Made by a program: the position numbers and the translations under genes
Assembly: GCF_000760295.1 (NCBI RefSeq)
Contig: NZ_JNBA01000036.1
Location: 1-64,000 of the forward strand
From: Prochlorococcus sp. MIT 0701
GTDB taxonomy: Bacteria > Cyanobacteriota > Cyanobacteriia > PCC-6307 > Cyanobiaceae
Reading direction: 5' to 3'
Length of the DNA: 64,000 bases
In this document: one piece after another, positions 16,693-35,087 of the stretch
How the letters are laid out: each line of letters begins with the position of its first letter
Numbering within the stretch: position 1 is the stretch's first letter
Notes under the pieces: generated by a model
Told to the model about the DNA's origin: nothing
Databases searched by the model: none
Seen by the model: the letters and a program-made list of their open reading frames with translations, nothing else

Positions 16693-16773
16693 GATGTCAG
16701 TCCAAACCATCACAAAAGCCTGATCAACAGCACAATCATTTTGCCCCAATCAGGCACGCGAAATCTTGCAACC

Positions 16774-17559: not shown

Positions 17560-17932
17560 GGTCGTCTTGTTTCCTACGCAATCATTCTATTAAGCACTGC
17601 CACTTTTTGGCAGACCAATCTAGCCCAATCATTCGATCTAATCATCTACGACCTTGTGAGTGAGGCAGGTCCGACCCGCTCTAACGAGGAGGATCCAATC
17701 ACAATGATCTCCATCAGTGAATCGAGCAGCAATTACCTTTGCTGGCCAATTGACGACCAAAAGCTCTGTAATGCCATCGATCCCTTGACGAACACAGGCG
17801 TCAGCACCATTGGCTTAGACCGTTACCGCAACCAAAGCCCAAGCACAACAAGACAATGGGCGCATTGATGGCCTCGCAGACGACAAATCCATCAGAATTC
17901 AATCACTTGAAGCTGCTTCAACATGCTGACTC
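17560..17932 (+). pseudogene. decayed CHASE2-domain gene fragment
   Basis: After a TGA at 17557-17559, one frame reads a hydrophobic helix (SYAIILLSTATFW), then QSFDLIIYDLVSEAG and DPITMISISESSSNYL, then WPIDDQKLCNAIDPLTNTGV and STIGLDRYRNQ. This follows the N-terminal helix and CHASE2 start of the cyclase at 20250 almost block by block; there the text is GLDLLLYDLV, QPITIIGIGEDD, FPIDDGLFCKGIDQLSKNGA and AIGFDIYRDQ. The frame stops at 17868, and a second frame continues with GRIDGLADDKSIRIQ until 17932. No start codon, cyclase domain or further CHASE2 sequence follows. It is a truncated, frameshifted paralogue. Confidence 0.7.
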
Positions 17933-17990: not shown

Positions 17991-19499
17991 ATGACGTTTG
18001 GCCTGCGCCTGATCACCACGATTTTGATCACCCTGCTGCTAGCGGTTAGCCATCAACGCAACCTGATTAGCTCACGCTGGCCAAAACCACCGGTTCGCCT
18101 GCCCGTGCTGGCGTTACTGATCTGGGTAGGGACTGCGCTGCCGTTCTTAGAAAAGATCATCTCCAAGCAGGCCAGCCTCACCACAATCGGACAACTGGCA
18201 CTGCTCTACGCAACACTCAGCCTGGGGGGATGGTTGCTCCTGGAGATTCCAGGGGCACTGGGCTGGTGGCATCCACCCGCCAAAATTCTGCGCCAACTGA
18301 GCGGACTGATCCTGGCAGCCATCCTGACATTAATCATCCTTCAACAGGCAGGGGTCAACCTCGCTGGCTTGATCACGACATCTGCCTTGCTCACAGGCGT
18401 CGTCGCCTTCGCAGCACAAGAACCACTTAAAGACATTTTCGGAGGGCTGAGCCTTCAATTAGACCAACCGTTTAAAGAAGGGGATTGGATCCAAATAGGA
18501 GAGGACTGCGGTCAAGTCATCATGCTGACCCTAATGAACACCTATCTCCGCACTGGTATGGATGGGTGCACCCTGATTATCCCAAACGACACGGTTGCTC
18601 AAGCGACGATCCGTCGAGTTCACCTAGGCACTCCCTATGGCAATTGTTTTGAAGTTGGCCTGGATTACGGCTTCCCACCATCACAAGCTCTCAGCCTGTT
18701 GCTGGATGTAGTCAATCGCCACGCTTCTGTACTGAACAAACCAGCCCCAAAAGCATGGGTAGCCAGCTTCGAAGACAGTTACATCTGCTATGGCATCCAG
18801 GTTTGGCATAGAGATATCAGTGACGTCAAACGGTTGAGCATCCGTGGTGAACTGATGGAACAAATTTGGTATGCCCTCGAGCGAATCGGTCAAAGCATTC
18901 CATTCCGAGTCCGTTTAGGGAGCCCCAAACCACAGACCTTGGCTGCAGACGATCCAATGTGCGCTGACGCTCAACGCAAGGTCAAATGGCTCACTAGCAA
19001 TGCACTTTTTACAGATCTAAGTCAAGCTCAACTTGATGCCCTAGCCCCATCAACACGCTGCGTACGTTTCGCAAAAGGGGAAACGATTATCCGACAGGGT
19101 GAAAGCGGAGATTGCTTGTACCAGGTGATCACCGGCACGGTTGAGGTGTCGCAAACAAATTCACAAGGACAAGCAATAACCTTTTCCAAACTTGGCCAGC
19201 ATGAGATCTTCGGAGAAATGGCACTGTGCACGAAACAACCTCGCAACTCCACAGTTCGCGCACTTGAAGAATCGGTACTACTAGAAGTGGAGCGCCGAGA
19301 CCTACAACCCCTGATCGATCAAGACCAGGGATTGGTTGAAAAGCTAGCCCGATTGGTACATCTCCGCCAAATGGAAATCGGGACACTCAATCAGCAGCAA
19401 AGTCATTCCAGCAGACTTCATAGTCAAAGAAGGCTGATTCGCTCCATGCATAAGCTCTACAAGGTGATACGCGGAGGGTCAAACGTGTCGAAAAACTAG
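17991..19499 (+). CDS. MscS-like channel with C-terminal cNMP-binding domain (bCNG type)
   Basis: The 502-residue protein joins a small-conductance mechanosensitive (MscS) channel to a cyclic-nucleotide-binding domain. About four to five membrane helices lie in residues 1-150. The pore-lining helix and beta domain follow (LAGLITTSALLTGVVAFAAQ, then EPLKDIFGGLSLQLDQPFKE and GDWIQI). The cNMP domain spans about 340-455 and has GQHEIFGEMAL followed by PRNSTV, so the phosphate-binding Arg is present. This is the layout of the bacterial cyclic nucleotide-gated branch of the MscS family, in which cAMP is thought to gate ion or osmolyte flow. It sits between two CHASE2 cyclases, which could supply its ligand. 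No operon partner is evident. Confidence 0.9.
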   Translation: MTFGLRLITTILITLLLAVSHQRNLISSRWPKPPVRLPVLALLIWVGTALPFLEKIISKQASLTTIGQLALLYATLSLGGWLLLEIPGALGWWHPPAKILRQLSGLILAAILTLIILQQAGVNLAGLITTSALLTGVVAFAAQEPLKDIFGGLSLQLDQPFKEGDWIQIGEDCGQVIMLTLMNTYLRTGMDGCTLIIPNDTVAQATIRRVHLGTPYGNCFEVGLDYGFPPSQALSLLLDVVNRHASVLNKPAPKAWVASFEDSYICYGIQVWHRDISDVKRLSIRGELMEQIWYALERIGQSIPFRVRLGSPKPQTLAADDPMCADAQRKVKWLTSNALFTDLSQAQLDALAPSTRCVRFAKGETIIRQGESGDCLYQVITGTVEVSQTNSQGQAITFSKLGQHEIFGEMALCTKQPRNSTVRALEESVLLEVERRDLQPLIDQDQGLVEKLARLVHLRQMEIGTLNQQQSHSSRLHSQRRLIRSMHKLYKVIRGGSNVSKN

Positions 19500-20249
19500 A
19501 TCAATAAAGGATTTACACTTTCACCAAGACAGTAAATAACTGATTCTAGGACCAAAAGACTCCAAAATTGAAGACCAAAGAAGCATAACTATTCCAATGA
19601 AAAGCTTTTAGCAGAGGTCGGTGCATAGCCGAAACTGCTAGCAAGCACCTTGCAAGCTGTCATTTTTGTTCGTTCAGATTGCGATTACTTCAAAAGCAAT
19701 TAAACAACTTTCCAAATAATTTAAATCTGCAAAGTCAATGAAAAACAAATTTTTATTGACCGCTCCATTCAGCGCACTTGCTATTCAGGCAAGAAGCTCG
19801 AGATCGTCACGAATGATGATGATTCGAACTTCTACTGAGGCTTCACAACTTGAACAAAGCAGAAAGATCATAAACGGCATATTTATGGCCTTCAATAGAC
19901 AGGGATTAACAGATAACTCGCTGACACTCTTGCACAGTATATTAGTTTATATATGGCTCACCACTAAATAGTGACCATCTCGTCAAGGGAAACAGAAAAT
20001 CCTCAGTTTCTAGTCCATAGGGCACAACCAATAATTACGGATTTAACAGCTGTAGCTGGCCACAATAATCGCCTTTCATAGAGGCAGCATGAAGGCAAGG
20101 AACTCAGGCTGAAAAAAACCAATCCGGAAATCACAGATCCTTAGGACTGCTCGAATCAAGCCGGTTGCAAGCAGTCAAATACCTAGTTTCATAGTGAAGT
20201 CAACCAGCCAGGTCGATGCTGCATAGGCTGAGAGAAAGGAGCATGGCTA
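19500..20249. other. 750-bp gap with no recognised gene
   Basis: The sequence is A/T-rich. A 77-codon forward frame at 19738-19971 starts with a hydrophobic run, but the rest reads as random and no ribosome binding site precedes it. Nothing else was identified apart from the ribosome binding site of the following cyclase gene (AAAGGAG at 20235-20241). Confidence 0.55.
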
Positions 20250-22244
20250 GTGGGAAAAGCCTCAAAAAGCAGCGGGCACCAACGACAACAGCCACGGCCA
20301 ACCAAAGCAACTGGCTGGAGATCCATCACCGCTAGAGGTATTGCTTGGCGAATAGCCCCCTACCTGATCGGCCTAGCTTTACTTGCTGTTTTCAAAGGTT
20401 TCGGAATATCCCAGGGTCTTGATCTACTGCTTTACGACCTCGTCACCACGTTGCGCCCTGCAGCCTCAGGCAAAACACAACCAATCACAATCATTGGCAT
20501 CGGGGAAGACGACATCCGCAACCACGGATTCCCCATCGATGATGGCCTGTTCTGCAAAGGAATCGACCAACTCAGCAAGAATGGAGCTGTTGCCATTGGC
20601 TTCGACATCTATCGCGATCAGGGCGTGGGTCCAAATCAGGAGTGCCTACGCGAGCGCTTTCGCAATAATCCTCGACTGGTCTCGATTTTCAACGTAGCCA
20701 GCAATATTCCAGCTGTTCCAGGAACGCCTCCTGAAAGACATAGTTACAACGACGTCTCCGTGGATGATGACAATGTCATCAGGCGAGATCTTGTTCACGT
20801 TGCCGGCCAAGACGAAGCCACAGTCGCCTTCCCTTTGCGCATTGTCGAAGTCGGCACAAAGGATAAAAAGCTGCGTCAACAACTAGAAGCAGGGACCATC
20901 ACTGATGCATGGTTGACAGCAAATCCCAATGGCAATTTCTTGTTTCACGGGAGTCATGCTGGCGGTTATTTCAACCAGAAAGCTGCAAGAGATGGAATGC
21001 AACGGCTGATTGTCTTCCGTGAACCAGGCAGTTTCCGCACCTTCTCTCTTTCCGCTCTGCTCAATGGAGATGTACCCAAAGCTGCCATTGCAAACCATAT
21101 GGTGCTGATCGGCAGCACCGCACCATCGCTGAAAGATCTTTTCGAGATTCCCCATAGCCGCTTCAGCGAAGGCGAAATTCAGCTCAAAATGCCAGGGATA
21201 GAAGTCCATGCTTTGCGGGTTGCCGCCTTACTGGACCGACAGCAAGGCATTCTCGTCAGAGGCTTCTTGATGCCCGGCTGGGGCAACATGATGCTGATCC
21301 TGGCAACCGCAGGATTAGGGCTATGGCTAGGCGAATCTTTCTCAACGCTGCGGCGTAGCGTGATTGTGGTCGTGACTGCAGCCGTTGTATTGAGCGCTGG
21401 ACTGGTGCTTCTGCTGATCAATTACATCTGGATCGGCACCGTCATGCCTGTTGCGGGTCTAACTGTCTTGGCAGGAACAGCATGGATTCGTCGCGGTGCC
21501 GCAAGTCAAAAGCACCAACAAGAAATACAACGCCTACTGGGCCAAGCCACATCACCAGCAGTCGCCCAGCAACTATGGCAACAGCGTGATCAACTACTCA
21601 AAGACGGACGTTTCGAAGGTCGTCAACTACCAGTCACGGTGCTGTTCACTGATACAGCCAACTTCACAACAGTATCCGAGCATTTTCAACCTGCTGAGCT
21701 GATGGACTGGCTTAACCGAGGCATGGCTAGTTGCGTTCCAGCCGTTACAACTCGAGGAGGAATGATCAACAAATTTACCGGTGACGGGCTGTTGGCAGTC
21801 TTTGGAGTCCCCCTCAGTGAAGACCCAAAAGCCGACGCCCGCGCGGCCATTGAAGCGGTAATCGAAATTCAAACTGGGCTGGTGAAGCTCAATGAAGAAT
21901 TAGCAAAAGAGGGTGCCCCAGCCAACCGTATGCGCATTGGCATTCACTCGGGTGTCGTCCTAGCAGGATCGATGGGTAGCAGCGAGCGGCTCGAATACGC
22001 GATCATCGGCGATACCGTGAACTGTGCATCAAGACTTGAGAGTTTCGAAAAAAATCGCCATGTAGGAGTTCTTCGCGTGTTGGTTTCATCAACCACCAGA
22101 GAACTACTCGGAGACGAGCTCAACAACTCTCTGCATTGGGACGAGTGGGGAGAGATTCAAGTCAAAGGAAGGGAAGAACCCCTACTCGTATCAGAACTCA
22201 CGATGGACAACGCACCGGCAACTGGGCCGGCCAGTTCGAAGTGA
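20250..22244 (+). CDS. second CHASE2-domain adenylate cyclase (class III)
   Basis: The 664-residue protein has a basic cytoplasmic N-terminus, one helix (about 35-50), a CHASE2 domain (about 55-335), three helices (about 340-415) and a class III cyclase domain (about 455-640). Metal-binding residues are Asp468 (LFTDTANF) and Asp512 (KFTGDGLLAVFG). Lys508, IIGDTVN and NCASRLE complete the adenylate-type active site, so it should make cAMP. GTG at 20250 is supported by AAAGGAG at 20235-20241; ATG at 20243 is in another frame that soon stops. Its 3' end overlaps the convergent DUF928-like gene by 47 bp. It is more similar to the relic at 17.6 kb than to the cyclase at 14-16 kb. Confidence 0.94.
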   Translation: MGKASKSSGHQRQQPRPTKATGWRSITARGIAWRIAPYLIGLALLAVFKGFGISQGLDLLLYDLVTTLRPAASGKTQPITIIGIGEDDIRNHGFPIDDGLFCKGIDQLSKNGAVAIGFDIYRDQGVGPNQECLRERFRNNPRLVSIFNVASNIPAVPGTPPERHSYNDVSVDDDNVIRRDLVHVAGQDEATVAFPLRIVEVGTKDKKLRQQLEAGTITDAWLTANPNGNFLFHGSHAGGYFNQKAARDGMQRLIVFREPGSFRTFSLSALLNGDVPKAAIANHMVLIGSTAPSLKDLFEIPHSRFSEGEIQLKMPGIEVHALRVAALLDRQQGILVRGFLMPGWGNMMLILATAGLGLWLGESFSTLRRSVIVVVTAAVVLSAGLVLLLINYIWIGTVMPVAGLTVLAGTAWIRRGAASQKHQQEIQRLLGQATSPAVAQQLWQQRDQLLKDGRFEGRQLPVTVLFTDTANFTTVSEHFQPAELMDWLNRGMASCVPAVTTRGGMINKFTGDGLLAVFGVPLSEDPKADARAAIEAVIEIQTGLVKLNEELAKEGAPANRMRIGIHSGVVLAGSMGSSERLEYAIIGDTVNCASRLESFEKNRHVGVLRVLVSSTTRELLGDELNNSLHWDEWGEIQVKGREEPLLVSELTMDNAPATGPASSK

Positions 22245-22869
22245 TCAGATCACCAAGATCGAAAGCCTTGGCCAATTCAGCACTTGGCACAGTCCCCCCG
22301 CAATAACGTCGTATCTCCGCAATCGCTATCTGAATACCGGCATCAGCAGGTTGAACATCTCTCACCAACAAACTCACGGCAGGTGGAGATACCGTCTGCA
22401 CGAACTGGAGGGGATCAGTGCTATTGATATCACCATCACCGCAGCGGTATGAAGACTCCCAAACAGTTGGGACCTGCAGGGCCTCAAATCTGATCAGAGT
22501 TATCCCTGCCGTGGAAGCCGGCAAATCTTTAGACGTTAGGTTTAGTCCAGAAGTCTCATTACTACGTGAGCCACTCATAGGACGAAACTGCAGTTCAAGC
22601 GGTTTAGGAGTTGCCGTAGGTCCCTCAAGTAAGCCAATTTGCAAAGTGCTATTCGGGGCATAGACACTGCTTTCGGGGACCAGATGAACCAGCAAGCGTG
22701 CACTACATTCACCTCTAGTACCCCCGCCCACTCGTCGACCAGGGAAACTACTGCGAAGGTCATCCTGAGCAAAACCAACGGCTGGAGCCAAGACAAGGGC
22801 AGCCAGTAGCGACCACAATCGCAATCGAAAAGCTGACCGTGATAAGCGCATAGACGATACTAAAGACAT
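22198..22869 (-). CDS. secreted DUF928-like protein
   Basis: The 223-residue protein starts with a signal peptide (hydrophobic LWSLLAALVLAPAVGFAQ, cleavage near residue 35). It has the DUF928-type opening SFPGRRVGGGTRGEC and a beta-rich domain with paired cysteines (YRCGDGD, RRYCGG, RCPS at the end). DUF928 has no known activity, but in cyanobacteria it repeatedly neighbours CHAT, CHASE2 and haemagglutinin-type genes, as here. It is the third gene of a reverse-strand set (exoprotein, CHAT, DUF928) and lies 136 bases after CHAT. ATG at 22851 is an alternative start. Its last 47 bases lie within the convergent cyclase gene. Confidence 0.8.
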   Translation of the reverse strand: MSLVSSMRLSRSAFRLRLWSLLAALVLAPAVGFAQDDLRSSFPGRRVGGGTRGECSARLLVHLVPESSVYAPNSTLQIGLLEGPTATPKPLELQFRPMSGSRSNETSGLNLTSKDLPASTAGITLIRFEALQVPTVWESSYRCGDGDINSTDPLQFVQTVSPPAVSLLVRDVQPADAGIQIAIAEIRRYCGGTVPSAELAKAFDLGDLITSNWPAQLPVRCPS

Positions 22870-23005
22870 AATGACCTACTTGAATGCAGGCTGCATCCAG
22901 CCTGCAGCCTCTCCTTCACTCTTACTATCACACCTCTGCAGAGGAAGCAAAAGCAAACAACACAAATAGAGCAAGCAGTGAATGATGGTGCCCATCAGAC
23001 ATGCT

Positions 23006-24325
23006 TCACCAGGGCGAACCCAACAGTTCAATCCCAGCCCAAAAGAAAGGATTCTGCATGCCCCTAGCTACGCGGCGTTGCTGTGTAGGGGTGAGATCGA
23101 TAAGCAGAGGTATGCCATCAGCACCGATGATCTGATCCCCCTCAAGTCTTACAAGCCCTCTGAGGAATGCCTGACGCGTGAGCTGTAGTGACTCAGCTTT
23201 GGGCATATCTTGCTCGAGGTAGCGATACATCTGCACGAAATAAGCAGACGTCACTACGTCATCGACATACCAAAGGGTACCGACAGCACTACGGGCACCA
23301 GCCTGAAGCGCCAGCCCAGCGAATCCGAGTTCAGAATCAGGATCGCCAATTGCAGTACGACAAGCACTAAACACAACCAGATCAAGGGGCACCCCTTTTC
23401 GCTGCTGACGCAGTTTCGATAACTGCGCCATAGAGATGGGCCCGGTACCAGAGTGAAGCTGAGATGCCGACGGTCCACCCGGCCGGAACTCCGCGTGAGT
23501 TGCTACATGAACGCGGTCATAGCGGGATTCACCGCCCTGCACAAGCAACGCTGATGGAGTGAAAGCTTTATCGAGGAAAAGATCCTTACGATCGGGATCG
23601 GATACTGCGATCTTCTCGAGCTCCTGTGGCACAAGCGGAAGTGACGCCAAGCCATCAAACTGAGAGGCACCAAGGGCCAGGAACCGCGAACCACTCTGAG
23701 CAGGTAGGTTTATATCGGTAAGTGCGAGCGATGGTGTCATCGCAAAGGCATAGCTGTCACCGAAGTAGCGCTGCCCATCGCTAAGTGCTGCAAAAGGTAC
23801 CGCCTGTAGGCCTCGATCAGCAGCAATCAGCAAGGTGCTGACGCGATGTTTCTCAAGCAACGGGGTAATACTGCCGATCAACCATTGGTGCAATCGTCGC
23901 GTTGGGGATTCTGGATTGGCCACATCCAAAAAGTCCTGCCGCGAGAGCTGGATATAGAGCTGCCTAAGCTGGGAGGCGAACTCACGTGTTGAGAGTTCAA
24001 CGCGACGTCCCTCAAGCTCGCCCTTAGACGGTATCAGGGTTAAATCGAGAAAAGCATCTGTATTTTTAGAAGTGGTCTTTCCGGCGGCCTGGGTGAAGCG
24101 CACATGCAATACCGCAGGGTTGTAGGCCACCCGGTTAAATCCAGGAGGTGGTTTTGGGGAAGGCAAAGCTGTCTGAGCAGCTACGAGCAGCCAAGGGTCT
24201 TTGCGCATCAAATTGGTTTGAAGCTCTGCCGATGTATGGCCCTGGCCAGCAGCACTTACTGAAGCCACCAACCCAAGCAATGAGGACTTAACAACAAAAC
24301 TGGCGTTCGCCCTAGCGAATGTCAT
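23006..24325 (-). CDS. CHAT-domain (caspase-like) protein
   Basis: The 439-residue protein has a possible N-terminal export signal (VVKSSLLGLVASVSAAGQG) and a C-terminal CHAT domain. The predicted catalytic dyad is intact: His277 in VHVATHAEF and Cys322 in VVFSACRTA. GFAGLALQAGARSAVGTLW, which follows, is a family signature. CHAT proteins are caspase/separase-like cysteine peptidases, and the secretion signal suggests action outside the cytoplasm. Its ATG overlaps the stop of the large exoprotein gene by 4 bases, so the two are translated together. Processing of the exoprotein or of its partner is an attractive but unproven role. Confidence 0.9.
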   Translation of the reverse strand: MTFARANASFVVKSSLLGLVASVSAAGQGHTSAELQTNLMRKDPWLLVAAQTALPSPKPPPGFNRVAYNPAVLHVRFTQAAGKTTSKNTDAFLDLTLIPSKGELEGRRVELSTREFASQLRQLYIQLSRQDFLDVANPESPTRRLHQWLIGSITPLLEKHRVSTLLIAADRGLQAVPFAALSDGQRYFGDSYAFAMTPSLALTDINLPAQSGSRFLALGASQFDGLASLPLVPQELEKIAVSDPDRKDLFLDKAFTPSALLVQGGESRYDRVHVATHAEFRPGGPSASQLHSGTGPISMAQLSKLRQQRKGVPLDLVVFSACRTAIGDPDSELGFAGLALQAGARSAVGTLWYVDDVVTSAYFVQMYRYLEQDMPKAESLQLTRQAFLRGLVRLEGDQIIGADGIPLLIDLTPTQQRRVARGMQNPFFWAGIELLGSPW

Positions 24326-27300
24326 CGGCGCTCACCAAAGCGTTGAACAGCCTGCTGCATACCTGCCTGGAGCTGAGCCGTCGTTGGTGTGGGTCGGTCC
24401 GCCAGATCAGGCAAGTTGAGATCCCGAATAGTACGGCTCGTGGTTACCTCATCAGCCTTGGCAAGATTGGCAGCCGCCTGAACTGATGTCACCCTGGTAA
24501 CAGAAGAAGGTGTCGAGGCTGCTGTCGGCGATGACGCAACGGAATCAGTGGTTCCACCTTCTAGCTCACCTGATTCAGGCTCGGCAGCTGAAGCTTCACC
24601 TAAGTCTGCATTTGCAGTGGAGTCTGTAGCTTCGCCTGATTCAACACCTCTGGCCTCTGTCTGGATATCGCCACTGCTACTAACAGAAGAAGTCAAAGCC
24701 CCATCAGCTACACCAGTTGAGCCATATGTCGAATTATCGACAACCTCAAAAGAGTTATTGAGCGAAAGATCCACTTCCAAACCATTAGCGGCTATGGCTT
24801 GAGGAGCCCCTTGTACAGCACCCGTATCAAATTCATCATTGGGAGAATCACTCATGGTTTCCGTAGATTCTCCCCCTTCAATTACTGTTACTGAGCTAAC
24901 AGTTGCTGTTTCAATAGCTACTGAACTAACGAGGCTTGTCACTAGTTGGGGCTGAGTGGAATTCACAACAGCGATAAGCTCAGCCACATCCTCATCATTA
25001 ATCAAATCCTGAGTGAAGTCATCATTTTCTTCTGTAGCATCTCCTGTATTGGCAGTTGGGGCAGATGTTGAAGTAGGTGTTGTAGCAGTCGCTCTAGTCT
25101 GAGTTGTAGTAGGTGTTGTCGTCTGAGTTGTAGTAGGTGTTGTAGCAGGTGTTGTAGCAGGTGTTGTAGTCTGAGTTGTCGTAGGTGTTGTCGTCTGAGT
25201 TGTAGCAGGTGTTGGGGTAGATGTATCGCCACCACCACCACTACTACTACTACTACTTAAACAGAGGTTACTGCTAGCACCACTAGAACAAGTCGCAGAT
25301 GTAGGAGCCGCAGAGTTAACTGTCAAAGTGCCAGCGGTAACTATTGTAGGGCCAGAGTATGTATTAACACCCTCCAAAATCAACGTCCCCTGGCCGATCT
25401 TGGTCAAACCATTACTAGCACTTCCACCTTGAATATTAGTGCTGTCAGTGTAAACCTCAAGTCCCGAATCTACATCAAATGTTCCTCCAGAGGCGCCCAA
25501 GGTTAACGTAGTAGTAGCCGCAGTAGAATCGCGTGGCACGTTAACACTGAATTTCAGAGTTGCGGCAGTGGTGTTAGATCCAAGGTTAATAGAAGTAGAT
25601 GTACCGAAGGCATCATTATGAGCGACTTGGAATGTACCCTCCTGTATATCTATCGTCTGAGTGATATCCGATTTTCCGGATATTAGTAACGTGCCAGATT
25701 CAACTTTAGTGAGCGTAAAAGAATCAGTGCCATCATTAAGATCAATACCGTGGCCTGATTCTGTTTGCACATTGCCAGCTCCGCCAACAGAAAGATTGCA
25801 AGTATTGGTTGATGTGCAGAGAGTTGCATCAGGTGCCACTGCATATGCAGTGGCACTGCTCGAGGGATCTAAAATCAAAAATGATGAGGCATTAGCCTCA
25901 ATCTTTGAATCTCCCTCCAACATAACTGTATCGGTAATCTCCGTGTAACCTGAAAAAGCCCTAAGCACAGAATCTGTAGGACCACGATTATAATTCAATT
26001 TAATCTGTTCCCCTACTTCCATCTCTTGAGCAAGTGTTGCACCACCAGCAAATTCAAGAGTGGCACCATCGCGTACAAGAGTTTCCTGTGTGGCAGTGCC
26101 AAGGCCCGCTGCATTCGACACTCTCAAGATGCCAGCATCAACGTAAGTTTCCCCATCGTAGGTATTAGCGCCAGCAAGAACCTGTGTACCAGGCCCTTGC
26201 TTAAGAAGCCTAGAAGTAGCATTATCTGCCTGAATAACGCCCGAGAATGTTTCAGTAGCACCTGAAGGGATATTGATTGTTAAATCTGTTGTAGTACCAG
26301 ACATATTATAGGTTCCACTGCCACTGAGTGAGCGAATTGTCAGATCATTCGAAGCACTCAATGTGGCTCCACTATCAATTATCAAATCCGTTGAACTAGA
26401 AAGCCCTGAGGCCGCACCCATTGTCAACATACCCGAATCAATGGAAGTATTGCCTGTATACGTTTGGGTACCTGTAAGCGTCAGATTGCCAACACCCTTC
26501 TTTTGTAGTCCGCCAGCACCAGAAATCACACCACTATATGTAGAAGTTCCAGATTGATTAACTGCAAATGTGCCTCCTGAAGCAACCGAAACATTGCCTT
26601 CTCCCGTTAGCTTGGCAGTTGTTACATCCAAGCCCCCACTGCCTGTGGTAACTGTGACTCCATTTGCAATATTTACTGTGTCATCAGCATTCAATTGCAG
26701 AGTCCCAGAGCCACCTGACCAATCCAAACTAATATTAATATTAATATCGCCATCAGGCGCATTCACAGTTGCGATATCTGAATCAGGAACATAAGTCGTA
26801 TCTTTTGTACTTGTACTAATTGCAACATTAGTGCCAGCAATCAAAGCATTTTGAATCGAATTTTGACTCGAATTGTCAATGGTATATGTAAATGGATCCA
26901 AGAGCCATTCACCCGCCTCACCATTTACACTCCCGACATCAATTGCGACTTGATCAACATCAAGATAAGCACCAGATGTTTCAATTTTTCCTCCATTGCC
27001 ATGAAGGCTTCCACCACGACTAACCAAACTGCCTGCAACGCTAGTTAAGCCATTAGGGTTATGGATATCACTCCAAGCCACAATCGTTCCGCCATTACCC
27101 TGATCAGTAGCCGAAGCATCAAATAACGCGCCAGGTTCAACCGTTGTATGCAACGCCTGGCGAACAGTTGGATCACTGTTCTGCCAGCTGCCACCCACTT
27201 GAATCAATCCTCCGCCAGTCGCACCAGTCGCCAACAGCTGAGAGCCACCATCCACCTTCACTTGCTCACCGGTCAGCGTGAGACTGCCACCACTACCATC

Positions 27301-27981
27301 AGCAGAACTCACCGAAAGGCGGCTGCCAACGACCTTCACACTGCCACCAGGTGCATCTACCAAGAGGCTTTGGTCAATCGATACATCAATTCCTTGGAGC
27401 AGAATCCTTGGGGTAGCTATAAGGCCAAGCTCTGCACGCCGCGCCGGATCATCTACAAATCCCTGCGATCCTGACAAGGGATCAGACACCAAAGCCGCCA
27501 GCTGCTGCGGGCTACTACCAAACACATCGAAAACACCGTTATGAAAACGCAGCGAATTGGCCGTACTTAGCTTGAGCTGCTGCACATTCACAAAGCCAAC
27601 CCCTGAGCCAAGATGAATGCCACCAGGTGACAGCCAAAAGAGATTGGCTGGTGACGACAAACTCAGCAGCTTGTCGAGATAGGTGCCAGCAGAAGCGGTC
27701 ACACCCACAATCAAATTACTTTTCCCACCGGTATCGATATTCACGCCCTTAATGGCACCACGAGTATCGAAAGCACTAAATCTGTGGAAACGATTCTTAC
27801 CCGCATCGCTGCCACCAGTAATGCGACAGATCCCACGCCTGCAGACCCCTTCAAGGTTCCCGTTAACACGAGTACCCAGCCCACCCGAACGCACATCAGC
27901 CCGCGCGACAGAACCAAGCCACGTCGAAACACCTAGCGTTAGAGCCAAGGTCAGCAAAACCCGTCTAGCGATAGATGTCAT
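24322..27981 (-). CDS. haemagglutinin-type TpsA exoprotein with PATR repeats
   Basis: The 1219-residue protein is the likely cargo of the divergent TpsB gene. ATG at 27981 gives a standard signal peptide (MTSIARRVLLTLALTLGVST...ARA); the frame extends to 28053. Residues of about 30-310 form a TPS/haemagglutination-activity domain (NRFHRFSAFDTRG, NLFWLSPGGIHLGSG). A beta-helical region follows with at least three passenger-associated repeats of the form GxGxLxLxGxNTYxG. Then come poly-Ser/Gly, a Thr/Pro/Gln-rich linker, an acidic low-complexity stretch and an Arg-rich end. It should be exported to the cell surface as an adhesin or similar fibre. No C-terminal barrel is present, which agrees with two-partner rather than classical autotransport. 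It heads an operon with CHAT and DUF928. Confidence 0.9.
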   Translation of the reverse strand: MTSIARRVLLTLALTLGVSTWLGSVARADVRSGGLGTRVNGNLEGVCRRGICRITGGSDAGKNRFHRFSAFDTRGAIKGVNIDTGGKSNLIVGVTASAGTYLDKLLSLSSPANLFWLSPGGIHLGSGVGFVNVQQLKLSTANSLRFHNGVFDVFGSSPQQLAALVSDPLSGSQGFVDDPARRAELGLIATPRILLQGIDVSIDQSLLVDAPGGSVKVVGSRLSVSSADGSGGSLTLTGEQVKVDGGSQLLATGATGGGLIQVGGSWQNSDPTVRQALHTTVEPGALFDASATDQGNGGTIVAWSDIHNPNGLTSVAGSLVSRGGSLHGNGGKIETSGAYLDVDQVAIDVGSVNGEAGEWLLDPFTYTIDNSSQNSIQNALIAGTNVAISTSTKDTTYVPDSDIATVNAPDGDININISLDWSGGSGTLQLNADDTVNIANGVTVTTGSGGLDVTTAKLTGEGNVSVASGGTFAVNQSGTSTYSGVISGAGGLQKKGVGNLTLTGTQTYTGNTSIDSGMLTMGAASGLSSSTDLIIDSGATLSASNDLTIRSLSGSGTYNMSGTTTDLTINIPSGATETFSGVIQADNATSRLLKQGPGTQVLAGANTYDGETYVDAGILRVSNAAGLGTATQETLVRDGATLEFAGGATLAQEMEVGEQIKLNYNRGPTDSVLRAFSGYTEITDTVMLEGDSKIEANASSFLILDPSSSATAYAVAPDATLCTSTNTCNLSVGGAGNVQTESGHGIDLNDGTDSFTLTKVESGTLLISGKSDITQTIDIQEGTFQVAHNDAFGTSTSINLGSNTTAATLKFSVNVPRDSTAATTTLTLGASGGTFDVDSGLEVYTDSTNIQGGSASNGLTKIGQGTLILEGVNTYSGPTIVTAGTLTVNSAAPTSATCSSGASSNLCLSSSSSSGGGGDTSTPTPATTQTTTPTTTQTTTPATTPATTPTTTQTTTPTTTQTRATATTPTSTSAPTANTGDATEENDDFTQDLINDEDVAELIAVVNSTQPQLVTSLVSSVAIETATVSSVTVIEGGESTETMSDSPNDEFDTGAVQGAPQAIAANGLEVDLSLNNSFEVVDNSTYGSTGVADGALTSSVSSSGDIQTEARGVESGEATDSTANADLGEASAAEPESGELEGGTTDSVASSPTAASTPSSVTRVTSVQAAANLAKADEVTTSRTIRDLNLPDLADRPTPTTAQLQAGMQQAVQRFGERR
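25070..25217 (-). repeat. degenerate 12-bp coding repeat encoding a Thr/Pro/Gln linker
   Basis: Units related to GTTGTAGCAGGT and GTTGTCGTCTGA repeat about a dozen times, reading TTTP, TTTQ and ATTP on the coding strand. They are followed by CCA/CTA triplet runs (25230-25258) that encode Gly and Ser. Such tracts are prone to slippage and probably vary in length between strains. Confidence 0.85.
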
Positions 27982-28192
27982 CACAGGAATTTTATTGCCC
28001 TCAAAACACATATCATCTAAAAGAAAGCCGTGATCAACAGTGATCAGTATCAAGACTTGCTGTGATCTGGCTCACTTGGCCAATGCTGAAGCGAATAGCA
28101 CCAGCGAGAAACCAATACGCCAAGGTCTATGACATTAATAATATTCGCCAAGCAACGGGTACTTGGTTCATCAATAAAAAACCCCATAATGA
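27982..28192. promoter_or_regulatory. divergent intergenic region between the TpsA and TpsB genes
   Basis: About 210 bases separate the exoprotein operon from the TpsB frame and must hold promoters for both directions. Several A/T-rich boxes are present, but none can be assigned with confidence. The right side contains the problem start of TpsB. Confidence 0.4.
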
Positions 28193-29905
28193 TTTGCAAT
28201 ACCTCGGAATACTCAAACCATATTTTTCCTTCTGGCTCAACTTGTAGCACCACCCCTGCAACCCGGGCCAGTACGACTGCCGGAACATACCCCCCTGGAA
28301 ACAGGGCCCCAACCAAGCCAACCCAGGCAGCCACAAATACTTAAAGAACCACAACCGCCGCTTGAAAACAAACCTGAAGAATCGCTAGTAGCACCTGCGG
28401 ATATCCCAAGCTCTAACTGGCGACCTCCTATCGAGGGCACGACCCCTTACAGCACTGAGCAACTTCAAAAAATTCTCAGCTCCTGCGGCAGACCAACCGT
28501 CGCAGACACCCTGAACATCTGTGCTGCCAAACTCACCGCCAGGCTGGTGCGCGATGGCTATGTGAACAGTCGGGTCTTCACTCTTGCAACACCAAGTCCA
28601 GGAGCACTGGAGGTGGTAGAGGGCCGAATCGCTGAGCTGCGCATCAAAAGCCCTGACTTAGGCCTGCAAAAGGAGATCAAGAAGCGGCTGAATTCACTGA
28701 TCGGCAGTGTGCTTCATCTGCCCAGCCTCGAAAAAGCTTTGGTAAATGTGCGCAGCATGCCTGGGGTGGGGCAGATCACAGGAAATCTGGGTCGCCTCGG
28801 CAGCGATGCCACTCAAGCCAAATTGAGCCTCACAGTCGACCCGGCCCCCACCCCATGGCTGGGAGAAGTAAGCATCCGCAACGACGGCAATATCGGCACC
28901 GGCGAATGGCGCAGTATTGCCACGGTGATGAAAAACAACCTCGTAAAGCGCAACGATAATTTTCTGGCCTACTTCGAAATGAATAGTGATTCCGACCCAG
29001 AACTCGGAGCCACCATCACCTCCACCAGTTACACCTGGCCGTTATCAGACAACTGGCGACTTATCGGATCATTCGGCCACAGCCGCCGCCAGCTAGTAGA
29101 AGCATCAGATGACGCCCATGAGATCAGCTTCCGGCAGTTGCAAGCCATGGGACAGGTGGAAACCACCTTGTACCGCTCAACCAATCAACTCTGGAGTGCC
29201 TTTGCAGGTATCAGCGGCAACCGCAATGACAGCTACCTCGCTGGCGACAGCATTCCTCTTGTACTCGGAGGCGGCCCAGACGGCTGGCTACGAAGCGGCT
29301 ATCTAAGAGGCGGCATTAACTTCTCCGGAAGCATCAAAGACCTGGCTTGGAACAGCAATATCTATGGACTACAAGGAATCGCTGGGTTCAGCACTGAGAG
29401 CCAGCTCAAGGAATTGGCCTGGTTCGGAATTAATCCAGGCGAAGCTCGAGCCATCGGTGGCCTAGCCAACCTTCACTGGAGCCTAAGCCCCAACGTGATG
29501 CTTAAGCTACGAGGGGCCGGTCAATGGGCCTTTAATCATCTTCCTAGCGACATGGGATTCAGCATCGGCAGCGATGTAGGTCTACGCGGGTTGCCTGGCA
29601 GTCTGATCAGTGGCGACAGCGGCTGGGTTGGAGTCAGTGAGCTGATAATGACTGCCTGGCGAAAAGATGATCAAGCACTCCAGATCGTCCCCTTCATTGG
29701 GATGGGTGGGGTTAGAACAGATTTCAACGACATCGTCTTTGAAGACACGATTGGATCAGGTGGAATCCTGACTCGCTACTACAAAGGATCCTGGATGCTG
29801 GAGTTGGGCTGGGTTAATTCTTTTGAAAGCGCAGATAACCAAGGCATTTGGCAAGAGTGGCTGCTAGGAGATGGCCTCTATGCACACCTGAAATATCGCT
29901 TTTGA
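28193..29905 (+). CDS. TpsB/ShlB-type outer-membrane transporter; start codon unclear
   Basis: This is the likely outer-membrane partner that exports the TpsA protein. The frame is open from 28193. It reads a signal-like TIFFLLAQLVAPPLQ, a proline-rich linker, and a POTRA-type domain (STEQLQKILSSCGRPTVADT, then CAAKLTARLVRDGYVNSR). A 16-strand-type barrel ending in the aromatic motif KYRF follows. No ATG, GTG or TTG lies in frame between 28193 and GTG at 28547, yet the conserved POTRA sequence starts well before 28547. ATG at 28189 is in another frame; removing one T from the run near 28222 would join them. Either a non-standard start (ATA 28220 or CTG 28232) is used, or a 5' frameshift has damaged the gene. 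The barrel itself is intact. Confidence 0.85.
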   Translation, partial: FAIPRNTQTIFFLLAQLVAPPLQPGPVRLPEHTPLETGPQPSQPRQPQILKEPQPPLENKPEESLVAPADIPSSNWRPPIEGTTPYSTEQLQKILSSCGRPTVADTLNICAAKLTARLVRDGYVNSRVFTLATPSPGALEVVEGRIAELRIKSPDLGLQKEIKKRLNSLIGSVLHLPSLEKALVNVRSMPGVGQITGNLGRLGSDATQAKLSLTVDPAPTPWLGEVSIRNDGNIGTGEWRSIATVMKNNLVKRNDNFLAYFEMNSDSDPELGATITSTSYTWPLSDNWRLIGSFGHSRRQLVEASDDAHEISFRQLQAMGQVETTLYRSTNQLWSAFAGISGNRNDSYLAGDSIPLVLGGGPDGWLRSGYLRGGINFSGSIKDLAWNSNIYGLQGIAGFSTESQLKELAWFGINPGEARAIGGLANLHWSLSPNVMLKLRGAGQWAFNHLPSDMGFSIGSDVGLRGLPGSLISGDSGWVGVSELIMTAWRKDDQALQIVPFIGMGGVRTDFNDIVFEDTIGSGGILTRYYKGSWMLELGWVNSFESADNQGIWQEWLLGDGLYAHLKYRF

Positions 29906-30147
29906 ACTCTAAACAACAAGCCTACAGATCAGCCTGAATACCGAAAAGGGATGAGGGCATGAACAAGTCGTTCACAGCAGTCTTTAATAATGGGCACAAG
30001 TAATCACAGCTTTGAAAAAAGGGAATTCCAAAGAAAGCACCAAAACAAAAGCATGAAGTGCAGGAGATTCTGATACTTAAGCAATACGAATGCCAAAGCA
30101 CACCTAGATTTCCTTGTCATTCCCTCAGCGATCCATCTGCGTGCGTT

Positions 30148-32094
30148 ATGTCGGCAGCCGACCCCATCCAGGGCAACAAGTCATGGACCGTTGCCGATAG
30201 CGCAGCCCTCTATGGCCTCGACCGCTGGGGGGAGCCCTACTTCTCAACCAATGCCCGCGGCCACGTATTGGTGCAGCCACGCGGCGATCAAGGCAGCTGC
30301 CTTGATCTGGTGGAACTGGTAGAGGAGCTCAAAAGCCGCAACCTCAACTTGCCTCTGCTGATCCGCTTTGATGACATCCTCGAAGACCGGCTAGAGAGGC
30401 TGCACAGCGCCTTCGAAGAAGCCATTACCAAATACGGATACGCCGGTCGATATCAAGGCGTATTCCCGGTGAAGTGCAACCAACAGCGCCACGTCGTAGA
30501 ACAACTGGTAGAAAGTGGTCGCCACTGGCACTTTGGCCTAGAGGCTGGCAGCAAGGCTGAGCTGCTGATTGCTCTTTCACTCGTCAACGACCCAGAGGCA
30601 CTCCTGATCTGTAACGGCTACAAAGATCAGCGCTACATCGAAACCGCGATCCTGGCCCGCAGGCTTGGTCGCCAACCTGTAGTAGTGATTGAACAACCCG
30701 ATGAAGTGGAGCGGATTATCCGCTCCAGCCAAGAACTTGGCGCAGCCCCCTTCATCGGTGTACGAGCAAAGCTAACGACACGCAGTACGGGCCACTGGAG
30801 TAGCTCAGTAGGCGAAAAAGCCAAGTTCGGCCTCTCAATCCCGGATCTGCTATCCACAGTGGAAGCCTTAAGGCAAGCTGATCTACTGAGCGATCTGCGC
30901 CTACTGCACTTCCACATCGGCAGCCAAATCAACGACATCGCTGTACTCAAAGACGCGCTTCAAGAGGCAGCGCAAATTTACGTAGAGCTGACCAAGCTGG
31001 GAGCCCCCATGGGGTATTTAGATGTTGGGGGTGGTCTGGGTGTCGACTACGACGGCAGCCGCAGCGCTAGCGCAGCATCGACCAACTACTCCCTACAAAA
31101 CTACGCCAATGATGTGGTCGCAACGGTGCGCGAATGCTGTGAACCCCATGGCATCACTTTGCCTATCCTTGTGAGCGAAAGCGGACGCGCAATCGTTAGT
31201 CATTTCTCAATACTCGTATTCGATGTACTGGGTACAGGAACTATCCCAGGAGCTGTACCAAAGCAAACAGGAGAGGAACCCCTCACCATTCACAACCTTA
31301 GGGAGACGCTCGCAGGAGTTATGGCAACTCAAAAGGGTGCTATGCCTGAAATATCGCGCCTACAGGAAGCATGGAACGACGCGATCAAATTCAAAGAAGA
31401 TGCCCTCGCTGCCTTCCGCTTGGGTTACATCAGTCTGCCAGAGCGGGCTCTGGCAGAACAACTTACAGGGGCTTGCGCCGAAGCAATTATGGGCCAATTG
31501 CCTTGCAACCAAACAATTCCCGACGACCTACAAAGTTTAAGAGCTGTTCTCGCTGACACCTACTACGCCAACCTTTCAATATTTCGTTCAGCCCCAGACA
31601 CCTGGGCCATCGAACAACTCTTCCCGCTCATGCCGATTCATCGATTGAATGAAGAACCAACTCAGCTAGGTCACTTCGCCGACCTCACATGCGACTCCGA
31701 CGGCAAACTGGACCGCTTCATCGGGAATGGGCAAACCAAAACTCTGCTTGAGCTGCACAACCTACGCCAAAACGAGGCTTACATGATTGGTATGTTTCTC
31801 GGCGGTGCTTACCAGGAAGTGATGGGCAATCTGCACAACCTGTTCGGCAGTACCAATGCAGTGCACATCCGGCTAACAACTGGTGGTGGCTACCAGGTAG
31901 ACCACGTTGTGCGAGGCAACACCAATTCCGAGGTGCTCGAAGCAATGGAGCACAACCCTGAGCTCCTGCTAGAGCGACTGCGCTTGGCTAGTGAACTTGC
32001 GATTCAACGAGGTGAGCTAAAGATCAACGATGTGCGCCGGCTGATGGACCATCTAGAAGCGAGCCTGCGTCAGACCACCTACCTTCAAGGCTAG
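30148..32094 (+). CDS. speA: SpeA, biosynthetic arginine decarboxylase
   Basis: SpeA converts arginine to agmatine with PLP, the first step of polyamine synthesis from arginine. The 648-residue length from ATG at 30148 (MSAADPIQGNKSW) is typical. The frame is open back to 30058 without family sequence. The PLP-binding lysine lies in YQGVFPVKCNQQRHVVEQ. HFHIGSQ, LDVGGGLGVDYDGS and ETLAGV are other family landmarks, and the C-terminal LHNLFGSTNAVHI block is complete. It stands alone, with 242 bases upstream without a gene. Confidence 0.96.
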   Translation: MSAADPIQGNKSWTVADSAALYGLDRWGEPYFSTNARGHVLVQPRGDQGSCLDLVELVEELKSRNLNLPLLIRFDDILEDRLERLHSAFEEAITKYGYAGRYQGVFPVKCNQQRHVVEQLVESGRHWHFGLEAGSKAELLIALSLVNDPEALLICNGYKDQRYIETAILARRLGRQPVVVIEQPDEVERIIRSSQELGAAPFIGVRAKLTTRSTGHWSSSVGEKAKFGLSIPDLLSTVEALRQADLLSDLRLLHFHIGSQINDIAVLKDALQEAAQIYVELTKLGAPMGYLDVGGGLGVDYDGSRSASAASTNYSLQNYANDVVATVRECCEPHGITLPILVSESGRAIVSHFSILVFDVLGTGTIPGAVPKQTGEEPLTIHNLRETLAGVMATQKGAMPEISRLQEAWNDAIKFKEDALAAFRLGYISLPERALAEQLTGACAEAIMGQLPCNQTIPDDLQSLRAVLADTYYANLSIFRSAPDTWAIEQLFPLMPIHRLNEEPTQLGHFADLTCDSDGKLDRFIGNGQTKTLLELHNLRQNEAYMIGMFLGGAYQEVMGNLHNLFGSTNAVHIRLTTGGGYQVDHVVRGNTNSEVLEAMEHNPELLLERLRLASELAIQRGELKINDVRRLMDHLEASLRQTTYLQG

Positions 32095-32206
32095 GGCTTG
32101 CCATCATTCCTATATCGGAGGCATGAGCAACTGTGATCACGGCAACTCATTGAGCACTGAAGAGTCGCATCCCAGGAGATCAGCAACTTGTTTTTCTGAA
32201 AGCTTT

Positions 32207-32255
32207 CCTAAGACTCCTAAGACTCCTAAGACTCCTAAGTCTCCTAAGTCTAAGA
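32207..32255. repeat. 9-bp tandem repeat (CCTAAGACT/CCTAAGTCT)
   Basis: Three CCTAAGACT units and two CCTAAGTCT units run head to tail, followed by a partial unit. The repeat is intergenic, between speA and the convergent Crp-family gene. It encodes no recognised protein and may be a simple slippage tract or part of the 3' ends of both transcripts. Confidence 0.9.
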
Positions 32256-32299
32256 CTGTTCTGGCTGATCAATTCAACCCGTAACCGTGCTCAAAAGCT

Positions 32300-32995
32300 C
32301 TAAGAGCCAAGCGGCAACAGACCTCGTTTGACCAGCGGCTGCAGATCCACCAAACGCAGACAGCCTTCAACCTCCTCCAGTGTTCCACGACTCCGCAGCT
32401 TGCTCAATGTCCGGGAGGCAGTCTCCCTGGACAAACCTGCCATGAGACCCAACTCCCTTTGAGCTAAGGATGGAATCGCCACTTTGGGATCATCGGCAGA
32501 AGAACTCTTGCGAGCCAAGTAAGCCAATGCATTGAGTAAGCGCGTCGTGGCATCACTGGTCTGGATTGCAAAACGCTGATTGAGATCCCGCAAGCGAGAT
32601 GCCTCAAGCTGAGCCAGGGCAATCGCAAAGCCCACTTCCTTGCGCAGCAAAGTCACAAAAGGCGACGCTCTCATCTTCAAAAGTTTCACTGGCGTTAAGG
32701 CCACAACATCAGCAGACCTGGGTGCTGCATCAAGAACAGCCATCTCACCAAACAGATCCCCCTCCCCCAACACTGACATCACAACTTCATCGCCATCAGC
32801 CGTATAACTGCGGACTTTGGCCATGCCTGAGCACAACAGAAAAACCGACTCACCCCAGTCTTGCTCCATCACGAAAACCTGTTCAGCAGCATGACTGGAC
32901 TCAAGATGGCGATCCAATAATTGCTCACAATCATCCGTTGTTAAAGCCGAAAAAAATTGCACAGCCTGCAACTGCTCAACACTGAAAACAGCCAT
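32300..32995 (-). CDS. Crp/Fnr-family transcriptional regulator
   Basis: The 231-residue protein has an N-terminal cNMP-binding domain (about 10-125), a long dimer helix (about 125-150) and a C-terminal winged helix (about 160-220; recognition helix in LMAGLSRETASRTLSKL). The phosphate-binding cassette GEMAVLDAAPRSAD keeps the canonical Arg and Ser, so cAMP binding is plausible. No Cys cluster for an Fnr-type Fe-S centre is seen. It could be the main reader of cAMP made by the CHASE2 cyclases; an NtcA-like role is less likely given the cassette. The gene faces speA, and the region upstream to the broken CHASE2 gene is 157 bases. Confidence 0.9.
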   Translation of the reverse strand: MAVFSVEQLQAVQFFSALTTDDCEQLLDRHLESSHAAEQVFVMEQDWGESVFLLCSGMAKVRSYTADGDEVVMSVLGEGDLFGEMAVLDAAPRSADVVALTPVKLLKMRASPFVTLLRKEVGFAIALAQLEASRLRDLNQRFAIQTSDATTRLLNALAYLARKSSSADDPKVAIPSLAQRELGLMAGLSRETASRTLSKLRSRGTLEEVEGCLRLVDLQPLVKRGLLPLGS

Positions 32996-33152
32996 GTTTC
33001 ATTATTTTTAGTTATTGAACAGTAATGCAACCCCTAAATCACTCTTCAATAAGAATCAATTATTGGCACATTAGTCAACCTTCACTCACACACTAAGCAT
33101 GCACTATTCCTGATCACAACTGTCGATCTCCAAACAAAGCTGTTCCTGCCTA

Positions 33153-34157
33153 ATGCAACAAGAGCTGGCTGTTCAGAACGACTGGCATCACGATGGTTAT
33201 TTGCAGTCTTGCGCATGGATGGCGACAAAGGGCAAGTGGATCAAGCGCCAAGCGGTTGTCTTAAGCCTTGGAGTGGTGATTGGCGGTATTGGCTTACTCT
33301 ATCCCAGCCAAATAGAGCTTCTTGAACTGGCATTTGTCGATGCTGCCCAAGAGCTTCGTGGCCCACGTCGGGTTCCCGATGGCATCACGATCGTGACCAT
33401 TGACGACTTCAGCCTGCAACAAGCATCCAATACAGATCTTAGTGAGAGAAGAGATTTACGTAGTTTGCAGCATTGGCATTGGCCGCGAAAAATCTATGCC
33501 ACGGTTTTGGATCGTCACTTTGCCTGTGGAGTGAAGGCTATTGGTGTTGACCTGCTCTTCGATAGCCCAAGTATCTATGGCACTACGACGATCAGGTCTT
33601 AACCATCATCTTAAAGCGCTGCCAACCCAAAGTCGTATTGGCAGCACAAGTGCTCGAAAGCCGTGGTGCTGTAGGAGGCCTAATCCTTCTGCGTGCCATG
33701 CCTGCACTTAGCGCTGCATTGGGAACAAACCAACACGGACTACTCAACGGATTCCAGGATGCTGATGGTTTGATCCGCCAACGCCCGAATACCTACTCCA
33801 CCACGGTCAGCAAGAGTCTTGGCGAAACAAGAAATCCAATACGGATCAATCTAGCGAAAGCAACGAGAATGAAGATTCAAATAATGAATCTACGAATACT
33901 TCTAGTCATGATTCGGCAATACTTCAACAGATAGCTCTAGGAATGACTCAGGCACTACCTCTAGGAATGACTCAGGCACTACCTCTAGGAATGACTCAGG
34001 CACTACCTCTAGGAATGACTCAGGCACTACCTCTAGGAATGACTCAGGTGATGCCTCATCGAATAATTCAGACAATAGCTCCAGCAGTGCATCGAGTGAC
34101 AATAAGAACAGTCAAGCTGCGAATACACGCACCATTACATTTACGCCTACAATTAAT
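33153..34157 (+). pseudogene. frameshifted CHASE2-domain gene with Ser/Asn-rich tail
   Basis: The first part (33153-33602) reads a membrane helix and a CHASE2 N-terminus (DGITIVTIDDFSLQQ, AIGVDLLFDSPSIYG). After a shift near 33580 the domain continues in another frame as YDDQVLTIILKRCQPKVVLA and GLLNGFQDADGLIRQR. A further shift leads to a Ser/Asn/Asp/Glu-rich run (KSNTDQSSESNENEDSNNES). A third, near 33915, leads to NTSTDSSRNDSGTT repeats and an end near 34157. At least three indels in one coding stretch mark it as a pseudogene, unless the assembly is faulty. No cyclase domain is present. Resemblance is closest to the cyclase at 13.9-15.9 kb. Confidence 0.75.
33937..34047 (+). repeat. 24-bp tandem repeat, about four and a half copies
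   Basis: The unit GAATGACTCAGGCACTACCTCTAG repeats almost perfectly and keeps one frame, encoding NDSGTTSR. The last unit diverges into NDSGDASS. The perfect copies point to recent expansion inside a gene that is otherwise decaying. Confidence 0.92.
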
Positions 34158-34520
34158 ACACGCACGATTACCAACATTCGATAAATTCTGCCATCAATAA
34201 GCATCTATGAATAATTAGCGCATCAACCCTCTTCAATGGGTTGGAGTTTGATCGTTCCGCCAAAAATATGAACTCAAACCTGAAATCTCCTATCATTTTA
34301 ACCAAAAATAATTCTATATTAATGCACAAAATTGATGAGAAAATAAATTAAGCCTTGATTTAAATGGCTGATCAAAGGCCAATCATCTAGAGAAGAGATG
34401 CCCAGTCACCAACATTACTATTTAATGCAAAAAAGCTTCCCCCCATCAAGCGACAGCTTGCATTGGCTCTGCAAGCTGTTGCCAGTCATACCAAGATAAT
34501 GAAAGCCATCCACGGCAGCC
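34158..34520. other. 363-bp A/T-rich gap
   Basis: No gene or hairpin of note was recognised. If one T is dropped from the TTTT at 34140-34143, the pseudogene frame would run on to 34185 as FTPTINTRTITNIR, a further sign of slippage there. Confidence 0.5.
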
Positions 34521-35087
34521 ATGTGGGGACAAGAACCTCAACTTCAGCGAGTCCGCGAGCGACTGAAGTTACTGCTTGCGATCCACACCAATGAACTCCA
34601 GCCAACAACCGTGCATGCCAAGCAAGGAGAGCTGCTCCTCAAGCAAGACGCACCAGCCAAACACCTGCTTCTGCTGACTCGGGGAAAGGTAGCGATTCAG
34701 ATCCAACACCAAGGTCAGTCACCGCACACATTGACGGTGGTTGAAGCCGAAGCAATTTTGGGGGAAATGGGACTATTTGGTGGTGGCACCCACTCCACTG
34801 ACGTACGAGTTGTCGATGGTCCAGCCGAACTGCTCCAAGTCTGCGGTGACGATCTACTCAAAGCACTGATCTATGACTCAGAGCTGCTGATCGAGCTTCT
34901 TTCTCTGGTTAGTCAGCGGGCCTGCAATGCCAACAAAGGGATCACATTACTACTTGATTCCATTAATGCAGCATACAAAGGGGATGATATCTTATTGGAC
35001 AAAATGCTCACAGAACTAACAAGTCTGAACCACTATATTTCGCAAACTGCCCAACAACTCAAGAAGCTCGACAAGAAAAATGAATGA
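34521..35087 (+). CDS. small cyclic-nucleotide-binding-fold protein
   Basis: The 188-residue protein is a single cNMP-binding fold (about 20-125) with a helical C-terminus ending in a Lys-rich coil (TAQQLKKLDKKNE). The cassette reads ILGEMGLFGGGTHSTD, with His in place of the phosphate-binding Arg, so normal cAMP binding is uncertain. There is no DNA-binding or membrane domain. The start ATG at 34521 lacks a clear ribosome binding site. It may act by protein contact, possibly with signalling partners nearby; no direct evidence exists. Confidence 0.75.
   Translation: MWGQEPQLQRVRERLKLLLAIHTNELQPTTVHAKQGELLLKQDAPAKHLLLLTRGKVAIQIQHQGQSPHTLTVVEAEAILGEMGLFGGGTHSTDVRVVDGPAELLQVCGDDLLKALIYDSELLIELLSLVSQRACNANKGITLLLDSINAAYKGDDILLDKMLTELTSLNHYISQTAQQLKKLDKKNE

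Follow-up and report, generated by a model that had tools for sequence, protein, structure and literature searches.

The CHASE2 cyclases of Sinorhizobium meliloti bring about a rise in cAMP when a plant protein is sensed via the outer-membrane barrel NsrA, and the CRP regulator Clr responds, as set out in the parts of the published accounts drawn on here (PMC13001267, PMC7529298). The Burkholderia BiofilmReg operon, in the sections of its description used here, places a FecR/LysM protein beside a CHASE2 histidine kinase (PMC5192318). The intact form of the picocyanobacterial locus examined in this work is like the NsrA-CyaK/CyaD1/CyaD2-Clr system, as far as those parts of its description go, in combining a CHASE2 cyclase, an exported-looking protein that appears barrel-like by eye, and a CRP regulator (PMC13001267, PMC7529298). 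It is unlike that system in that the partner's barrel is a prediction from sequence, with no Pfam match and no significant PDB match. With the BiofilmReg operon, again on the sections used, it shares a FecR-domain envelope protein encoded beside a CHASE2 sensor, but the sensor is a histidine kinase there and a cyclase here, where the partner has no LysM match and carries a repeat tail (PMC5192318).

The locus in the present genome is a remnant of that arrangement. Like the CHASE2 class III adenylate/guanylate cyclases, it begins with the start of a CHASE2 domain, 90% identical to the intact cyclase of its nearest relative; unlike them, it has no CHASE2 end, membrane helices or catalytic domain, these having been deleted. 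The deletion pseudogenes of streamlining Prochlorococcus-type genomes offer a further comparison. The likeness lies in the fate of the gene pair, kept at its site in one of five sister genomes, and the difference in that the locus would be an intermediate stage, an accidental fusion with the appearance of a gene. The feature is a deletion pseudogene of an ordinary kind, and its anatomy is instructive.

Frame structure and domain content

The remnant lies in the window, meaning the whole 64,000-nucleotide stretch of DNA that was analysed (genome G000, contig C36, positions 1-64000). The genome measures 2.59 Mb in 53 contigs and is 99.98% complete. The features of the locus are as follows, with deletions given relative to the nearest relative, G001.

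32300..32995, minus strand: CRP/FNR-type regulator (cNMP_binding and HTH_Crp_2), a neighbour that stands beside the cyclase pair in other species too (Pfam, synteny)
33219..33583, plus strand: 5' portion of a gene for a CHASE2-class III cyclase in its original frame, codons 1 to about 121 (PF05226, shared ATG)
33583..33584, plus strand: 1-bp deletion relative to G001, the first frame change (DNA alignment; a stop follows at 33600)
33585..33824, plus strand: further CHASE2 sequence, now in frame 2, reaching roughly residue 202 of the 637-aa cyclase (translation, DNA alignment)
33825..33827, plus strand: join left by a deletion of 3220 bp in G001 coordinates; both sides have AAA (DNA alignment)
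33828..34184, plus strand: Ser/Asn/Asp-rich C-terminal tail relic of a FecR-like gene, frame 1 and then frame 0 (G001 alignment, frames)
33914..33915, plus strand: second 1-bp deletion relative to G001, inside the tail (DNA alignment)
33935..34048, plus strand: 24-bp tandem repeat coding NDSGTTSR in frame 0 (Tandem Repeats Finder)
34521..35087, plus strand: cyclic-nucleotide-binding protein, a neighbour, without a helix-turn-helix match (Pfam)

Translation of 33120-34260 gave a frame order of 0, 2, 1, 0 along the remnant, with stops. The CHASE2 residues of frame 0 end at the stop at 33600 and frame 2 takes over from about 33584; the Ser/Asn/Asp-rich stretch occupies frame 1 at about 33826-33914; frame 0 resumes after about 33914 with the NDSGTTSR repeat and closes at the stop at 34182-34184. 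A first-pass annotation of this DNA had described a CHASE2 domain split over two frames and a Ser/Asn/Asp-rich region in a third, and both descriptions hold. The NDSGTTSR repeat that it reported is also real, but the frame of the repeat is not a new one, being the first frame again.

The same annotation had begun the gene at 33153, which is an unlikely start because G001 has an in-frame stop directly upstream of the ATG that it shares with the window at 33219. The shared ATG is the likely start, and the frame that it opens runs for 127 codons and carries the beginning of the CHASE2 domain. PF05226 (CHASE2) matched in the 33219-33602 frame only (E 1.4e-15), over profile positions 7-82 (or 83) of 257, whereas the match in the G001 cyclase spans positions 7-253; a full-length CHASE2 domain is thus absent here. 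Over residues 1-127 the first piece shares 90% amino acid identity with the G001 cyclase.

Two genes at the site

At the corresponding site G001, which we take to be Prochlorococcus marinus MIT 9313, has two adjacent intact open reading frames of 637 and 743 amino acids. The first product, P0001, consists of CHASE2 (PF05226) and a class III cyclase domain (PF00211); the second, P0002, is a FecR-like, exported-looking protein whose end is Ser/Asn/Asp-rich. Window positions 30066-33827 aligned with G001 at 94.7% identity without a large gap, ending at L011:4389, and the match picked up again at window 33825, which corresponds to L011:7607. At single-base level the window agrees with the left flank as far as 33827 and with the right flank from 33825 onwards, the shared letters being AAA, in a junction known from one assembly. 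Both ends of the deletion fall within intact G001 open reading frames, one in the cyclase and one in the FecR-like gene, and the tail matched G001 at 82% DNA identity over 33825-34000. The front of CHASE2 therefore abuts its partner's tail, out of frame, and the locus is not the one frameshifted gene that it had been taken for, because a 3220-bp deletion joined two genes.

The other frame changes are two single-base deletions, at 33583/33584 and 33914/33915. The three losses, 1 + 3220 + 1, add up to a number divisible by three, which returns the repeat to the first frame. These three frame-breaking lesions bear out the earlier view that the rest of the gene is decaying. None lies at a homopolymer run, and the slippage-prone spots that had been suggested do not account for the single-base lesions, which are outside homopolymer or slippery runs.

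The missing 3217 bp had no DNA match anywhere in the window's own genome, all contigs included; an empty DNA search run without a positive control proves little alone, but protein searches agree with it. Searches of the genome with P0001 and P0002 returned only the 5' cyclase fragment and paralogues. PF00211 was not found at the remnant, and a profile search of the same genome matched only at 74180, 21630 and 13936, in three other cyclase genes. Translocation rather than deletion was rejected on the missing 3217 bp having no match in the genome. Programmed frameshifting was likewise rejected, given that the cyclase domain is absent and that the orthologues listed at 50% identity or more read through; one of these 26 (G123) has an internal stop. 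As to a phage origin, the window feature had no match in a phage collection, and the 24-bp repeat had none in viral contigs.

We therefore assign a probability of roughly 0.93 to the reading of the feature as a two-gene pseudogene, produced by a deletion of about 3220 bp and two 1-bp deletions and bearing the lineage's own repeat expansion. Its one-gene appearance would be the scar of a 3.2-kb deletion that fused the front of a cyclase to its neighbour's repetitive tail.

The gene pair in related genomes

The cyclase was searched for in 300 genomes of the family at E 1e-40, giving a match in 99, and the FecR-like partner in 300 at E 1e-15, giving a match in 72. A FecR-like gene lies within 750 bp and on the same strand at all 26 orthologous cyclases (at least 50% identity), downstream in 25 of them, and within 750 bp at 29 of 30 loci when all identities are counted. 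Four cyclase loci fall below 50% identity; the FecR-like gene is at most 500 bp away in G004, G047 and G229 and 4278 bp away in G249. In G013, G123 and G215, speA, the CRP gene, the cyclase, the FecR-like gene and alaS occur together. As homologues of CRP, speA or alaS stand beside the pair in other genomes, the ancestral state at this site is the intact pair.

Within the genus the pair is intact at the site in G001 and broken or absent in the other four of five genomes. In G002 some 160 bp of the cyclase remain, joined directly to the downstream spacer, through a different and larger deletion. G003 and G004 have about 170 bp between the CRP and cNMP matches, with similar spacers, and the pair is absent at the site; a diverged pair (39% and 38%) is present on a different contig of G004. 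Of the four sister genomes compared, three (G002 to G004) are incomplete drafts, yet each has both flanks of the site on one contig. There are at least two independent junctions, those of the window and of G002, and the loss is therefore recurrent. The window locus appears to be a pseudogene caught part-way through this recurrent loss.

The FecR-like protein of G001 has no Pfam match, but its residues 25-145 aligned at 42% identity (E 1.8e-28) with the window protein at 15928-16749, which itself matches FecR (PF04773). Among nine FecR-like members none had a Pfam match, and one weak PDB match was obtained (E 0.1). The alignment of the FecR-like partners has a strand-like pattern, judged by eye only. 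Of 121 FecR-like places listed, from searches that scored at most three or four candidates per genome, at least 88 have a listed cyclase on their own strand no more than 1 kb away; a chance model with genes placed at random gives a mean of 0.36. Adjacency of cyclase and FecR-like genes on one strand recurs family-wide in several paralogous sets, and the window itself has another CHASE2 cyclase and FecR-like gene side by side, at 13924-15852 and 15928-16749.

The repetitive tail

Tandem Repeats Finder reported a period of 24, 4.8 copies and a 100% match at 33935-34048, with four exact 24-bp units at 33942-34037. The unit, allowing up to two mismatches, was found nowhere else in the window's genome and nowhere in the four sister genomes. 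The same tail in G001 contains a related 24-bp unit, at 2.9 copies and a 76% match, and an AAC run; the perfect array of the window is in keeping with the recent expansion that the first-pass annotation had read from its purity.

Tandem repeats were found by the same program in 11 of 15 other FecR-like orthologues, with quite different units, Glu-Pro, Lys-Pro-Ala-Pro and Thr-Pro among them. All lie past nucleotide 1546 of the scanned reading frames (1719-1974 nt), and the periods reported are multiples of three. The cyclase genes of the same genomes had tandem repeats in 2 of 15, with periods of 13 and 14. Because repeats occur in 11 of the 15 orthologous tails, the repeat is a habit of the tail and not the mark of a special gene. 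A 24-bp unit is a multiple of three, so that a change in copy number cannot shift the frame.

Elsewhere in the window, a tandem repeat of 12/24/72 bp at 25054-25214 codes for a Thr/Pro/Ala-rich stretch in a large secreted-type protein (24322-28053). An intergenic 9-bp repeat, TCCTAAGAC, lies at 32206-32248 (4.8 copies, 97%); a search of the G001 stretch L011 for an 11-base piece of it found none.

Residue changes in the remnant

Seventeen residues differ from G001 in the aligned cyclase part, after exclusion of two of 19 raw differences, the first of those at 194 and the one at 197, in which letters were misaligned behind the frameshift. Two of the changes, P87H and L100H, alter residues that are identical in all 24 orthologues having one at that column. 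Some differences run the opposite way; at residue 109 the window has glycine, the commoner state (19 of 25). Of 35 changes in the remnant, 18 fall outside third codon positions, compared with 61 of 207 in speA, CRP and alaS (Fisher p=0.018), neighbouring genes that are imperfect controls for this comparison. The residue and codon-position changes give a modest indication of decay under relaxed constraint, and a working product from the remnant is very improbable.

Discussion

The proposed history begins with an ancestor in which a CHASE2 receptor cyclase would have been followed by a FecR-like protein, with a CRP regulator on one side of the two and a cyclic-nucleotide-binding gene on the other. 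The tail of the FecR-like envelope protein would have been of low complexity and prone to repeats. About 3220 bp, ending in 3 bp of shared sequence (AAA), would then have been deleted, so that the cyclase lost its second half and the partner gene was removed almost entirely; what remained of the two was fused out of frame. The two 1-bp deletions, and the substitutions at conserved positions, may have come before or after this large deletion. The 24-bp repeat would be the lineage's own expansion in a tail that bears different in-frame repeats in most species.

Other explanations were weighed against this history. The first-pass annotation had proposed a switchable gene, its frame set by repeat number or slippage. 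A perfect tandem repeat does lie within the remnant, and the three shifts do sum to a multiple of three, which makes the last frame the same as the first. The 24-bp unit is frame-neutral, however, and the lesions are outside the repeat as well as outside homopolymers. The cyclase domain and the partner gene have no match in the genome, and no frame change restores the deleted domain, so that phase variation is the least credible of the readings considered. An assembly or sequencing error over intact genes is slightly less far-fetched but still very improbable. The assembly is indeed a draft of 53 contigs, but the junction lies well within a contig of 197 kb, the missing 3.2 kb is on no other contig of an assembly of such completeness, the indels are away from homopolymers, substitutions fall at otherwise invariant residues, and the same pair was lost in a sister genome. 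Between these two in plausibility, and also very doubtful, is a new use for the fused remnant, for example as a short CHASE2 membrane fragment; its first piece is open from 33219 and includes the start of the domain, but this would be a partial sensor domain without an output, with conserved residues altered.

A further explanation is a variant of the deletion reading and concerns how the join was formed. In homology-assisted illegitimate recombination, G002-like donor DNA would have paired on the alaS side and microhomology would have served on the cyclase side, with deletion of the 3.2 kb. Divergence from G001 is about 5% to the left of the junction, rises at the junction to 17-18%, a level seen across the tail and the cNMP gene, and returns to 5% from 35407. 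The cNMP gene of the window (34521-35087) is 82% identical to that of G001 and 90% to that of G002, the reverse of speA, at 96% and 88%. Given this divergence and the grouping of the cNMP gene with G002, recombination may have shaped the junction. Against this, a tail of low complexity may just change quickly, G001 may be the genome with the odd sequence (the cNMP genes of G001 and G002 are only 79% identical), and a plain replication-slippage deletion accounts for the join equally well. We regard recombination of this kind as unlikely, while considering it a far better candidate than phase variation, assembly error or new use.

With the two-gene pseudogene as the preferred reading, the false lead of a switchable repeat gene is removed and its cause supplied. 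The intact pair, whose tail has repeatedly re-evolved repeats, merits testing. In the ancestral locus the CHASE2 cyclase adjoins the CRP regulator, and the ancestral role may have been to convert an envelope signal into cAMP; by analogy, the intact pair resembles the NsrA-CyaK outer-membrane cAMP sensor of Sinorhizobium. CHASE2, FecR and cyanobacteria were not found together in the literature searched, although CHASE2 with FecR alone does occur. A tentative proposal, which we would not favour at present, is that the pair forms an undescribed marine picocyanobacterial envelope-to-cAMP sensor. An exported receptor, FecR-like and barrel-like and with a hypervariable repeat tail, would act on the CHASE2 cyclase and the cyclase on the flanking cyclic-nucleotide-binding regulators, and the genus would be discarding the pair by repeated independent deletions, with the window as one frozen intermediate. 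Should the pair prove to be a sensor, the fact that one genus has lost it repeatedly would show a signalling input given up during genome streamlining.

Other features of the window

A second CHASE2 relic was observed at 17587-17829 on the plus strand, with an internal stop just upstream. It shares 38% identity with the N-terminal region of the intact cyclase encoded at 20250-22244, and the surrounding stretch is also present in G001. The block at 19475-30065 encodes a CHASE2 cyclase, a CHAT-domain protein, a large PATR-repeat protein and a ShlB-type transporter. This block is missing from G001 at the corresponding place (L010, 11993 to 12154), and parts of it are present in G002 at 71-73%.
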